Origin: a virus
Reading direction: 5' to 3' (one strand)
Virus record (IMG/VR): IMGVR_UViG_3300042559_001243
Span: 1-38,353 of that record
DNA: 38,353 nt
Shown here: positions 21,217 through 35,683 of the stretch, piece by piece
Numbering within the stretch: the first letter of the stretch is position 1
Layout: each line of letters begins with the position of its first letter
The notes under the pieces: generated by a model
Seen by the model: only the letters and a program-made list of their open reading frames with translations
Databases searched by the model: none
Told to the model about the DNA's origin: nothing
Position numbers and translations under genes: made by a program

Positions 21217-21804
21217 TTAATCGTCGCTGCTGTCTTCCAACAACAAGGGGGCGGCCTTGGCTATCAGCGCAATCTCCTCTTGCTGCCGTTCATAGGCGTG
21301 CTGGTCATTTTGCGAGGCAAGCCTATAATCCTTAATAGTATCAAACGCCCCGGTATATTCTGACCAATTCTGATTGCGTTTCTGCCAGTCAAGAGCAGCG
21401 ATGTACTCGGCATAGCTCACTCGTGGCTTAGGCGGGTTCAAAATGGCCGTGATATGCGCCGGGGTGGGGAACTCCTGCGTGTTCTGTAGGTGGATTTTCA
21501 GCGCGTATTGCACCTGTTCGGGGGTGTACTTGCCCTCAAAGGCGAATTTAAACCCGGCAATGACAGCAGGCAAGTTAACCGTTTTCCCGTAGGTTTTTTG
21601 CATCTCTTCTAGAAAAACAAAGGTTTCACTCAAGTTAGCTTCAGCCTTTGCTTCCCATTTCTGCGGCTCTCTCTTCAGCGGCGGCCTTGCGTTTGAGGTC
21701 TGCGATAAACTGGAGGTTGATTGCTTGCTGTCTGTCTCGCTCTTGCTGGAAGCTTGGCTTCGATTGAGGGTAATTTCTTGCATTACTTTGTTGAAAGGGT
21801 TCAT
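21217..21804 (-). CDS. helicase-loader-like replication protein
   Basis: 195 residues from the ATG at 21804, which has GGAG 8 bases upstream (an ATG 12 bases earlier lacks a site). Residues 1-55 are polar and disordered. Residues 60-130 carry FVFLEEMQKTYGKTVNLPAVIAGFKFAF ... YALKIHLQNTQEFPTPAHI, the pattern of phage replication proteins of the G39P/helicase loader-like type (a helical bundle ending in Pro-T-P-A-x-I). It follows the initiator-like gene, as lambda P follows O. The first 164 bp overlap the initiator gene in another reading frame, which is unusually long. Confidence 0.55.
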   Translation of the reverse strand: MNPFNKVMQEITLNRSQASSKSETDSKQSTSSLSQTSNARPPLKREPQKWEAKAEANLSETFVFLEEMQKTYGKTVNLPAVIAGFKFAFEGKYTPEQVQYALKIHLQNTQEFPTPAHITAILNPPKPRVSYAEYIAALDWQKRNQNWSEYTGAFDTIKDYRLASQNDQHAYERQQEEIALIAKAAPLLLEDSSDD

Positions 21805-22540
21805 TTTTAACTCCATCGGTTAGTGTTTCATTTGACTCGTAAACGGTTAGCCATGCGCTAAGGATGGCTCTTTCAATCAGTTTAGTGGGGTCATGGCCTT
21901 TATGATATAATTCTGTGATTTTATTTATTAAAAGCTCTTTCGCATGGGCAGTCATAGGTTTTTTCATGATTGCACGATTGGCAAAAAAAGCGTTCAAGGC
22001 GGCTTCCGGGATGTGATCTGGAATCACTAACGGGGATTCTGGCGGTTTTTGCTTTCGAGGTTTTTTCTTCACCGGGGGTTCAACAACCGAATCGAAATCT
22101 TCAACCGTCTCCTTCCCCCCTTGGGGGGTTAGGGGGGTTAGGGGGGTTTCTTTCTTTCTTTCTTTCTCATTCTCAATACCAATATCAGTATCAGTATCAG
22201 TATCAGTATCAGTATCGGCTTTTTTGGGTTCCTCTGGGTTATTCTGGGTTCCCAAAAAACCCACTGGGTTATTTGGGTTATTCTGGGTTTCCGGAATTTT
22301 TGGCCTCCCTCCCTTTAAACCATTGTTTTTGTTCCTTTCAATAATTGACGCATATTTCCCATTATCTCTTTCTAAATTTGATTTAATAAAACTAAAGGCC
22401 ATCTGAACGACAGGATCGAGTTCTGGAACGTTTCCGGCGTTAAATTTAAAGATCGCTTTGAGGAGTTTTCCGGCCTGCTCATCGGTTAAAAGATCGATGT
22501 GCTGCTCATAGTCCTGATACAGGATGAAGCTTTTTTTCAT
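21641..22540 (-). CDS. replication initiator-like protein (DUF6291 N-terminus)
   Basis: 299 residues from the ATG at 22540, which follows GAAGGA. Residues 1-80 (FILYQDYEQHIDLLTDEQAG, then NGLKGGRPK at 73-81) match DUF6291, common at the N-terminus of phage replication proteins. Residues 82-170 are a low-complexity linker: NNP repeats, a run of Asp-Thr, TPLTP, then a Lys/Pro tract. The C-terminal third is helical. The linker is encoded by a dense set of DNA repeats that may be the origin itself, as in lambda O. It is followed by a helicase loader-like gene. The role is inferred from domain, order and repeats. Confidence 0.65.
   Translation of the reverse strand: MKKSFILYQDYEQHIDLLTDEQAGKLLKAIFKFNAGNVPELDPVVQMAFSFIKSNLERDNGKYASIIERNKNNGLKGGRPKIPETQNNPNNPVGFLGTQNNPEEPKKADTDTDTDTDTDIGIENEKERKKETPLTPLTPQGGKETVEDFDSVVEPPVKKKPRKQKPPESPLVIPDHIPEAALNAFFANRAIMKKPMTAHAKELLINKITELYHKGHDPTKLIERAILSAWLTVYESNETLTDGVKNEPFQQSNARNYPQSKPSFQQERDRQQAINLQFIADLKRKAAAEERAAEMGSKG
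22120..22400. other. candidate replication origin inside the initiator-like gene
   Basis: Plus-strand order: GGGGGGTTA twice plus GGGGGGTT (22123-22148), TTTC five times (22147-22166), TATCAG five times and TATCGG (22183-22218), and GGGTT at 22226, 22236, 22246, 22266, 22275 and 22285, that is, one per helical turn with one turn skipped. Right of this, 22321-22400 has only 22 G/C in 80 bases by my count. Iterons beside an AT-rich stretch within the initiator gene is the plan of lambdoid origins. The repeats could also be simple low-complexity coding DNA. Confidence 0.45.
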
Positions 22541-24671: not shown

Positions 24672-24886
24672 ACACCAACAATAAACCATTAAAAATTTTC
24701 GACAAACAAGAATTGTATCATTATGTTTATGGGGTAAAAACTCTTGGCAAAAACCCCGAAATGGAGGGCAACTGCTCAGAGCTACGGGGCAACTGCTCAG
24801 AGCTACGGGGCGACTTAGACCTGATAACCACTAAGCAACGCGAGGAAAATTCCTATATCCTTTTTTATAAGGAGGTGCAGTCATGA
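24668..24886 (+). CDS. small protein with internal tandem repeat
   Basis: 72 residues. It starts MNTNNKPLKIFDKQELYHYV and contains GNCSELRGNCSELRGDLD around residues 34-51, produced by an exact 21-bp tandem duplication. The next gene starts with the same MNTNN, also after an ATGA overlap. Unrecognised. The repeat looks recent because it is identical at DNA level. Confidence 0.55.
   Translation: MNTNNKPLKIFDKQELYHYVYGVKTLGKNPEMEGNCSELRGNCSELRGDLDLITTKQREENSYILFYKEVQS
24766..24807 (+). repeat. exact 21-bp tandem repeat, two copies
   Basis: Copies at 24766-24786 and 24787-24807 are identical, and a third begins (GGGC). The unit encodes GNCSELR, and each copy contains the small dyad GCTCAGAGC. 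It keeps the reading frame. It is either a slippage product or a repeated peptide motif with a role in binding. Confidence 0.9.
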
Positions 24887-27792: not shown

Positions 27793-28296
27793 ATGGCTTA
27801 CAGTGACTACGGCGGATTTGCCTATAAAAACGGCGTTCGTGAGGACTCTCGCAGCGACGTTGAACTTTCACCAGAGGGCCTTCGCAGTACGCCCGGTCAG
27901 TGGCCGGGATTTACAAGCACAGCACCCGGCAGGAAAGAATGTTTCCACGTTATCCTTGGCTCTGGGCCAATATTTGTTGGCCTATACAAGCAAACAATGA
28001 TTACTATTTTTCGCGGATCAGAACGTGTTGAAAATCTTTACTGGGACGAAAAAGCGGGATTGTTTTTATCGCGCAAAGTGGACGGCGTTCTGATTGAAAT
28101 GCGCTGGGAAGTAACCGATAACCACTACCAATATGTTCGGATGATAGAGCCGAACGAAACCGTGTGGACGGGTTTTTCGGGTTACGGGGTCGGCGCGGGG
28201 CTGGAGGACGGTGGGCACGGCTTCAGTACTGCTGAGTGTGTCGGGCGGCTTGAGAATATATTTGAGACCATTACCAACGAAGGAGAAAAGTCATGA
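27793..28296 (+). CDS. hypothetical beta-rich protein
   Basis: 167 residues from the ATG at 27793, with GGGAGGA 7 bases upstream. The protein is rich in aromatic and beta-forming residues (ECFHVILGSGPIFVGLYKQT, VDGVLIEMRWEVTDNHYQYV) and has Gly-rich turns near the end (GYGVGAGLEDGGHGFS). One of the larger early proteins without a recognisable family. It might be a binding protein or a fold of about 150 residues with enzymatic function, but no motif supports this. Confidence 0.55.
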   Translation: MAYSDYGGFAYKNGVREDSRSDVELSPEGLRSTPGQWPGFTSTAPGRKECFHVILGSGPIFVGLYKQTMITIFRGSERVENLYWDEKAGLFLSRKVDGVLIEMRWEVTDNHYQYVRMIEPNETVWTGFSGYGVGAGLEDGGHGFSTAECVGRLENIFETITNEGEKS

Positions 28297-33893: not shown

Positions 33894-34465
33894 ACGCAGT
33901 TCCTCCAAGGTCTCCACGGCTTGCCTTTATTGGCGCGGATTTTCTCCGCTTTAGCACGCGAGATAAAGCGCACCTCAAAGCCTCGTTTAACATCAAAACC
34001 GTTTATCTCATTGCAAAATCCATTGCGAAACCCATAAAACCGCCCGTCTATCTCAATGCACGTCTGTTTAAGATCGCCGCCTAAAAGGCACGCCAGCACG
34101 TCTAGAAACGTCGTGGGTGTCTTGTAATAGGCCACACAATCGGATTGCTCGCGGCCAGAGCGTACAATCGAATTTAAACCTATCAGGGCTAGGATCGTTG
34201 TCTCAATAATGGCCCACCAAGGGTGGTAGATAGAGACACCAAAAACCATCCCTACAAGCTGGTCTGCAACCCATACTACAGCCATTAACGCGATTGCCGC
34301 GCTTAATATCCTGTGTCGCACTTTGGTGACTCCACACGCTCCTGCCAAGGATAAAGCGCATAGAGTCACCAAAATACCTAAGAAGTAAACGTCTGAAGTG
34401 CCCTCACCGAGAAAGTCTGCCAAGTGAGGCAAAAACAATCCGGCAAGAGCAACCAGGTGCAGCAT
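33878..34465 (-). CDS. multi-helix membrane protein in the lysis region
   Basis: 195 residues. Three to four transmembrane helices in the first 100 residues (MLHLVALAGLFLPHLADFLG, VYFLGILVTLCALSLAGACG, RILSAAIALMAVVWVADQLV, WWAIIETTILALIGLNSIV). The cytoplasmic C-terminal domain (TPTTFLDVLACLLGGDLKQT, then IDGRFYGFRNG) has Cys residues and a basic end. It is coupled to a 35-residue gene by a TAATG overlap. It may take part in lysis or superinfection control; no family was recognised. Confidence 0.55.
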   Translation of the reverse strand: MLHLVALAGLFLPHLADFLGEGTSDVYFLGILVTLCALSLAGACGVTKVRHRILSAAIALMAVVWVADQLVGMVFGVSIYHPWWAIIETTILALIGLNSIVRSGREQSDCVAYYKTPTTFLDVLACLLGGDLKQTCIEIDGRFYGFRNGFCNEINGFDVKRGFEVRFISRAKAEKIRANKGKPWRPWRNCVWCLL

Positions 34466-34572
34466 TAAGACTTTTTGCCGGGCTTCTTGACTGGGGCGGG
34501 CTTCTTATTCTCGCCTAGCCGTCCTGCCATTGATTTAGGGGGTGCTTTGTGACCGCCGTTTGCGCGTGACAT
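34465..34572 (-). CDS. 35-residue basic protein
   Basis: The ATG at 34572 follows ATAAGGAGAAAATT, a strong site. The peptide begins MSRANGGHKAPPKSMAGRLG and ends with a Lys/Pro tail. Its TAA overlaps the ATG of the membrane protein downstream. It is disordered and strongly basic. Unrecognised, but the ribosome-binding site and overlap support it. Confidence 0.6.
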   Translation of the reverse strand: MSRANGGHKAPPKSMAGRLGENKKPAPVKKPGKKS

Positions 34573-35309: not shown

Positions 35310-35683
35310 AATGGAGGAAACCAATTTGCTGCTTGAAGTTGAGCCATTGTCTGCGTTGTAGTTCCTAAGCTAGCAGGCATAATTGTAAGAGAATTAATAT
35401 AAGTTCCTATTGCCGCTGTAATGGCATTTTGCAACGCAGTTGATTCAGCTCCTGTAATTGTAGTCATCAAAGCGGTTGCGGCTGATGGGTTGACACTTGC
35501 ATCAACTTTAAGGTCTGCAATATTGGAAAACCCCAATGCAAGAGCTGTGCCGTTGTGTTTTTGAATTACTGGTGCGTAAAATTGAGTCACAGCTCCGTTT
35601 GATGGCCTGGCAATCAACCATAACGCCTTGCTAATATTTTTTGCATAATTGAAATCAGTAGTGTTAAGCAACAGATATAGCAT
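35306..35683 (-). CDS. hypothetical virion-associated protein
   Basis: 125 residues, rich in Ala, Thr, Asn and Ser, with LYLLLNTTDFNYAKNISKAL at the start and ALQNAITAAIGTYINSLTIM later. Composition and position after the lectin-like gene suggest a fibre- or tail-associated protein. It overlaps the upstream gene by 20 bp. No family recognised. Confidence 0.5.
   Translation of the reverse strand: MLYLLLNTTDFNYAKNISKALWLIARPSNGAVTQFYAPVIQKHNGTALALGFSNIADLKVDASVNPSAATALMTTITGAESTALQNAITAAIGTYINSLTIMPASLGTTTQTMAQLQAANWFPPL

Follow-up and report, generated by a model that had tools for sequence, protein, structure and literature searches.

In lambda, the replication origin lies inside the initiator gene O, in its linker code (PMC5043065, PMC7466680). 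The binding domain comes first and the iterons follow it; next are a purine/A-rich tract, a palindrome, the C-terminal domain and finally the P gene. In SPP1, gene 38 (gp38) is an initiator gene with oriL, which consists of direct repeats and an unwinding element, and a second similar origin, oriR, is located about 13 kb away (PMC6316719). Iteron plasmids of the RepA/RepE/TrfA type have helically phased direct repeats adjoining an A+T-rich region (PMC5043065).

We analysed a phage record of 38,353 bp over its whole length (hereafter, the window), in which terminase, portal-like and tail genes are present. Based on the fact that distant relatives keep evenly spaced DNA repeats despite peptide change, we consider it very probable that its DUF6291 gene encodes a replication initiator of the phage and holds, in its linker DNA, a lambda-type embedded origin bound by DUF6291.

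The DUF6291 locus beside lambda, SPP1 and iteron plasmids

The features of the locus are, by position in the window:

21217..21816, minus strand: downstream gene that overlaps the DUF6291 gene and stands where a helicase-loader gene would be expected
21641..22540, minus strand: DUF6291 gene, putative initiator, 299 aa, ATG at 22540 (the listed start is a TTG upstream of this ATG)
21641..22120, minus strand: code for the C-terminal domain, which matches PHROG 678 'replication initiation O-like' when searched alone (E 8.9e-12)
22115..22148, minus strand: C-run/G-run hairpin element, coding strand CCCCCCTAACCCCCCTAACCCCCCAAGGGGGG, a shorter form of which recurs in phage initiator linkers
22147..22167, minus strand: AAAG purine tract (plus strand TTTC), flanked by array and hairpin; its lambda counterpart, a purine/A-rich tract, occupies the equivalent place
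22183..22216, minus strand: GATACT hexamer array (TATCAG on the plus strand), coding for Asp-Thr, putative DNA unwinding element
22226..22289, minus strand: iteron zone with six AACCC(A) units in direct orientation on the coding strand, 10, 9 or 20 bp apart, and one in inverted orientation, on a grid common to relatives
22258..22270, no strand assigned: central palindrome AACCCACTGGGTT (coding strand AACCCAGTGGGTT), enriched in the family in two codon frames
22298..22540, minus strand: code for aa 1-81, the N-terminal DUF6291 domain and putative iteron-binding domain, with NKNNGLKGGRPK at its end

The gene product matches the PF19808 (DUF6291) profile with an E value of 1.9e-29 and 102.1 bits, against a curated cut-off of 27.2. 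An AlphaFold2 model of the DUF6291 domain consists of three helices (pLDDT 88). Comparison of this model with the PDB gave no fold match above chance, for which reason a winged-helix origin-binding fold was rejected, and a PDB sequence search with the domain returned marginal hits only. Given a three-helix model without PDB match, the DUF6291 domain family is a candidate, as yet unproven, for a new origin-binding fold. Viral matches of the domain are DUF6291 proteins, some of them named replisome organizer or DnaD domain; DUF6291 is not mentioned in the literature searched. The downstream gene was considered as P and set aside because it had no match in family searches, and it carries no recognisable loader signature. 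In relatives, annotations and sequence place DnaB-type helicase, DnaC-like or P genes often at the position after the DUF6291 gene.

A sequence-only reading of the window had proposed a lambda-like origin made of phased repeats in this gene, and the repeats that it listed were recovered. Six GGGTT units start on the plus strand at 22226, 22236, 22246, 22266, 22275 and 22285 (spacings 10, 10, 20, 9 and 10 bp), five exact TATCAG copies lie at 22183-22212, and TTTC (5.2 copies) and GGGGGGTTA (2.9 copies) occupy 22147-22167 and 22123-22148, all inside the linker code of the gene with the PF19808 match. In coding-strand order, the AACCC spacings are 10, 9, 20, 10 and 10 bp. That reading had missed an inverted AACCC unit at 22258-22262, which creates the central palindrome, as well as three further GGGTT units with 9-bp spacing within the G-run repeats (22126, 22135 and 22144). 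Nowhere in the record are AACCC/GGGTT units denser than in the linker; no second cluster was found elsewhere in the window, where one isolated pair lies outside the gene, at 28170. The window also contains a 21-bp tandem repeat (2.4 copies, 96%) at 24766-24815, inside a small early gene.

The comparison with lambda held part for part when lambda was examined identically. The parts follow one another as binding-domain code, phased iterons, easily melted array, C-run/G-run hairpin (in the window) and O-like C-terminal domain, with the iterons between the two domain codes and, in the family profile, the A+T/purine-rich tract on the side of the C-terminal code. The lambda palindrome that follows the A/T-rich tract, with arms of 12 bp, has its counterpart in the window hairpin, and lambda O and the window gene product are of 299 aa each, from genes of nearly the same length. 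The units differ: lambda iterons are 18 bp long at 20-24-bp spacing, while DUF6291 words have 5-6 bp, recur every 9-10 bp and include one inverted unit at the centre. By the searches made, the DUF6291 N-terminal domain is unrelated to lambda O, matching other PHROGs and not 277; BLASTP gave no match of the window C-terminus to lambda O despite its membership in the O-like PHROG 678, and sequence homology failed to place the protein in the lambda O family over both domains. Iteron plasmids share with the DUF6291 linker phased direct repeats and an A+T-rich region. Their iterons are longer units and their initiator is another type of protein; unlike in these plasmids, the DUF6291 origin would lie inside the gene, with a best period of 9.85 bp. 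The likeness to SPP1, taken from its published description, is a second copy of iterons and array in two DUF6291 phages (below), about 23 kb and 15 kb away; such a second module is found in those two records and not in the window.

DNA-level conservation of the iterons

Relatives were drawn from phage records, viral contigs and bacterial genomes. The AACCC-type test set contains 46 non-redundant DUF6291 genes with a GGRP-type tail, which were compared with a null model in which codons are redrawn or shuffled while the peptide is kept (2000 synonymous shuffles). The 46 linkers contain 167 ACCC sites versus 44.5 expected (sd 5.5), and 76 site pairs at 9/10 bp versus 4.9 expected (sd 2.2; maximum of 14 in the 2000 shuffles), which excludes chance at the family level. 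AACCC spacings are 9-10, 19-20 or 29-30 bp. All three codon frames are used (44, 71 and 52 sites), and in each of them the base preceding ACCC is A in about 100% of cases. Central palindromes (ACCCAGTGGGT) number 22 in the 46 loci against 0.12 expected and are translated as NP[VL]G[FYLS] in 11 and as [KE]P[ST]G[LF] in the other 11, in two codon frames. Likewise, AAACCCAA is read as KPK, ETQ/KTQ or NNP in its three frames, and phages of Pseudoalteromonas, Shewanella, Vibrio and Aeromonas as well as metagenomic phages carry the same word and spacing in other codon frames. The sequence-only reading had taken the linker peptide for a by-product of DNA selection and proposed to align relatives; the alignment bears this out, with conserved DNA repeats at helical spacing and drifting peptides in distant phages. 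One word in three frames and one palindrome with two translations rule out selection on the peptide. A DNA-level function of the iterons is thus close to certain, and the conservation of the linker is, from these alignments, best described as selection on DNA rather than on peptide.

The grid extends beyond the AACCC type. Another 42 non-redundant DUF6291 loci, outside the AACCC class, keep the spacing of about 10 bp: five-base self-matches peak at lags 9/10, 19/20, 29/30 and 38/39, with z of 21 at lag 10, 17 at lag 20 and 14 at lag 29. Where the iteron zone reaches a z of 46, neighbouring code gives no comparable signal (2.2 and 0.4 for the domain, 1.1 and -0.2 for the C-terminal part). Iteron words elsewhere in the family include ACCAA, CCGAA, GCAAA, ATAAC, ATACC, ACGAA and TAGCG, among others; no repeat word could be assigned in several DUF6291 loci, some of them within the 42. 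Such changing words on one grid would be the pattern expected of co-evolution between a binding protein and its sites. The period that best fits the iteron zones, taken over 30 AACCC-type loci, is 9.85 bp, well short of 10.5; successive sites would rotate around the helix, which might point to wrapping or to a filament-like complex. On the domain tree, itself poorly resolved, AACCC-type loci cluster (16 changes versus 28 with shuffled labels). The tail type (aa 70-81) goes with the word, AACC[ACG] being found with 44 of 50 GGRP tails and with 1 of 33 other tails (p 8e-16); because the loci are related and the codons of GGKQ-type tails overlap the repeat word, a recognition rule between GGRP tail and AACC words is suggestive only.

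Searching viral contigs with a DNA-only pattern, AACCCAGTGGGTT-N(1-30)-AACCC-N(4-5)-ACCC, returned 60 places, of which 43 lie directly 3' of a DUF6291 domain. Those examined among the remaining matches were repeats of other kinds, T-run hairpins by structural genes and a single gene whose N-terminus differs (L202). AACCCACTGGGTT with terminator-like T-run hairpins is seen in L209, L210, L219, L232, L248 and L251; in L209 and L219 these hairpins sit after a phage structural-type gene.

Two loci (L002 and L006) combine the C-terminal domain of the window with other N-termini and have other linker repeats, and DUF6291 genes with C-terminal domains of PHROG 270, 1408 or 428 keep phased iterons, suggesting that iterons and N-terminal domain travel together. 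L202:4428-5348 is an exception: this replication-type gene has AACCC palindromes in its linker but another N-terminus, and no DUF6291 domain was found in its record. Stand-alone copies were found in two records. In 2799112729_000001 (L227:8784-8882), a 99-bp second copy of iterons and array is 98% identical and lies about 23 kb from the gene. In 3300014756_000035 (L233:11638-11781), a second copy, about 15 kb away and diverged to 78.5% over 149 bp, keeps the iterons and has lost the reading frame; this record has a single DUF6291 domain.

The proposed melting side and the C-run/G-run hairpin

With the last iteron as the anchor of an alignment of 36 loci, DNA stability is lowest 15-60 nt downstream, where the array is. 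Codon choice within the array is biased, with AGT for 88% of serines versus 18% elsewhere and GAT for 98% of aspartates versus 67%, and the hexamer copy number in near relatives is 4, 6 or 9 (range 4-9). The AT-rich region of the origin had initially been placed at 22321-22400. This stretch is indeed A/T-rich in the window, where 22310-22399 has 67-80% A+T and the most A/T-rich 30 bp (22370-22399, 0.80) are on the other side from the array; but the putative melting region of the family is the array, at 22147-22216 on the side of the C-terminal code. As an unwinding element, 22321-22400, which encodes the conserved DUF6291 domain, was rejected on the family stability profile. The array thus appears to be the family-wide melting region, on the side matching lambda, whereas the window by itself has as much A/T or more on the opposite side.

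The GGGGGGTTA G-runs, which the sequence-only reading had counted among the repeats of the origin, proved not to be part of the DUF6291 iterons and form a separate hairpin found in many other initiator linkers. Among DUF6291 loci it occurs in the window and L001 only; the loci examined that carry it are window 22115-22148, L174-L198 and L258-L330. Searched as DNA in viral contigs, the hairpin CCCCTWACCCCCNAAGGGG gave at least 119 stretches, and its backward-read control pattern gave 0 matches. Among the matches listed, 44 of 70 non-redundant places lie in a same-strand frame of at least 200 aa, in all three codon frames (26, 7 and 11). Of the genes scanned individually, 17 of 20 match phage replication-initiation, O-like, replisome-organizer or DnaD-like families, and many such families were matched when the 44 genes were scanned together. 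The element usually follows a purine-rich, low-complexity tract, and some of the remaining places resemble intergenic repeats. We propose only tentatively, and with more doubt than confidence, that initiator linkers are generally overwritten by a modular origin, whose parts would be initiator-specific iterons with a period near 9.85 bp, an unstable array and, whatever the type of binding domain, the shared C-run/G-run hairpin CCCCTWACCCCCNAAGGGG, serving a common step (for instance strand loading or primosome assembly); such a module would be exchanged with the binding domain and could be copied as a second origin.

Alternative readings and proposed mechanism

The sequence-only reading had named cumulative GC skew as a check, and the minimum was found at 21422, 0.8 kb from the window iterons. 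Minimum and iterons are also near each other in three phage genomes, at 46 and about 261-300 in phiA005, at 34225 of 34257 and about 799-830 in Pseudoalteromonas phage PS_L5, and at 35316 and about 34464-34494 in Shewanella phage ZP9; these minima roughly coincide with gene-orientation switches, which are a confounder.

Could the iterons instead be operators through which the DUF6291 protein autoregulates its own gene, with replication starting elsewhere? An autoregulator would also be expected to have sites in or near its own gene, and stand-alone copies 15-23 kb away could be operators too. We nevertheless judge this quite unlikely: the sites are some 250 bp past the start codon and come together with an unstable array, with O-like or other replication-initiation C-terminal domains and with helicase genes, and the stand-alone copies hold iterons plus array. 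It is more improbable still that the repeats reflect selection for a disordered peptide linker or microsatellite slippage instead of selection on DNA. Array copy number does differ among near relatives, as slippage would have it, and the array alone may slip; the peptide-level explanation of the iterons is contradicted by the use of one word in three frames, the spacings of 10, 19, 20 and 29 bp are not multiples of three, and the same palindrome, ACCCAGTGGGT, gives N-P-V-G-F in some phages and K-P-S-G-L in others.

We give equally little credence to the idea that palindrome and repeats act at the RNA level, be it in termination, attenuation or the control of translation. A hairpin can form from AACCC-AGT-GGGTT with a following T, similar T-run sequences stand beside structural genes in other phage contigs, and single sequences fold somewhat better than their shuffles. 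Against this, many relatives have no T-run after the palindrome, helical phasing is meaningless for RNA structure, and the folds of relatives disagree, on which ground RNA structure was rejected as the explanation. An initiator gene with an embedded origin is, by contrast with these readings, supported at the sequence level by DNA-level iteron conservation, clade-specific words, array instability, replication-gene context and second copies.

For the steps of binding, melting, helicase loading and origin firing we reason by inference, with melting and loading modelled on lambda. The phased AACCCA iterons, together with the central palindrome, would be the binding sites for several DUF6291 domains. 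The resulting nucleoprotein complex would strain and melt the A/T-rich GATACT/AAAG tract on the side of the C-terminal code, the O-like C-terminal domain would recruit a helicase or loader, and the host replisome would then replicate the phage genome.

On this reading DUF6291, a widespread domain hitherto of unknown function, would acquire one, and origins are predicted to about 100 bp for many phages and prophages from Pseudomonadota, Bacillota and Bacteroidota. The hairpin, as a separate element, may be one more component that origins have in common; no description of such a component was found in the literature searched. The initiators of the family differ in iteron word and share one grid, a natural collection from which a recognition code could be derived. 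More broadly, a low-complexity linker in a phage replication protein can be the trace of a function exerted by the DNA.
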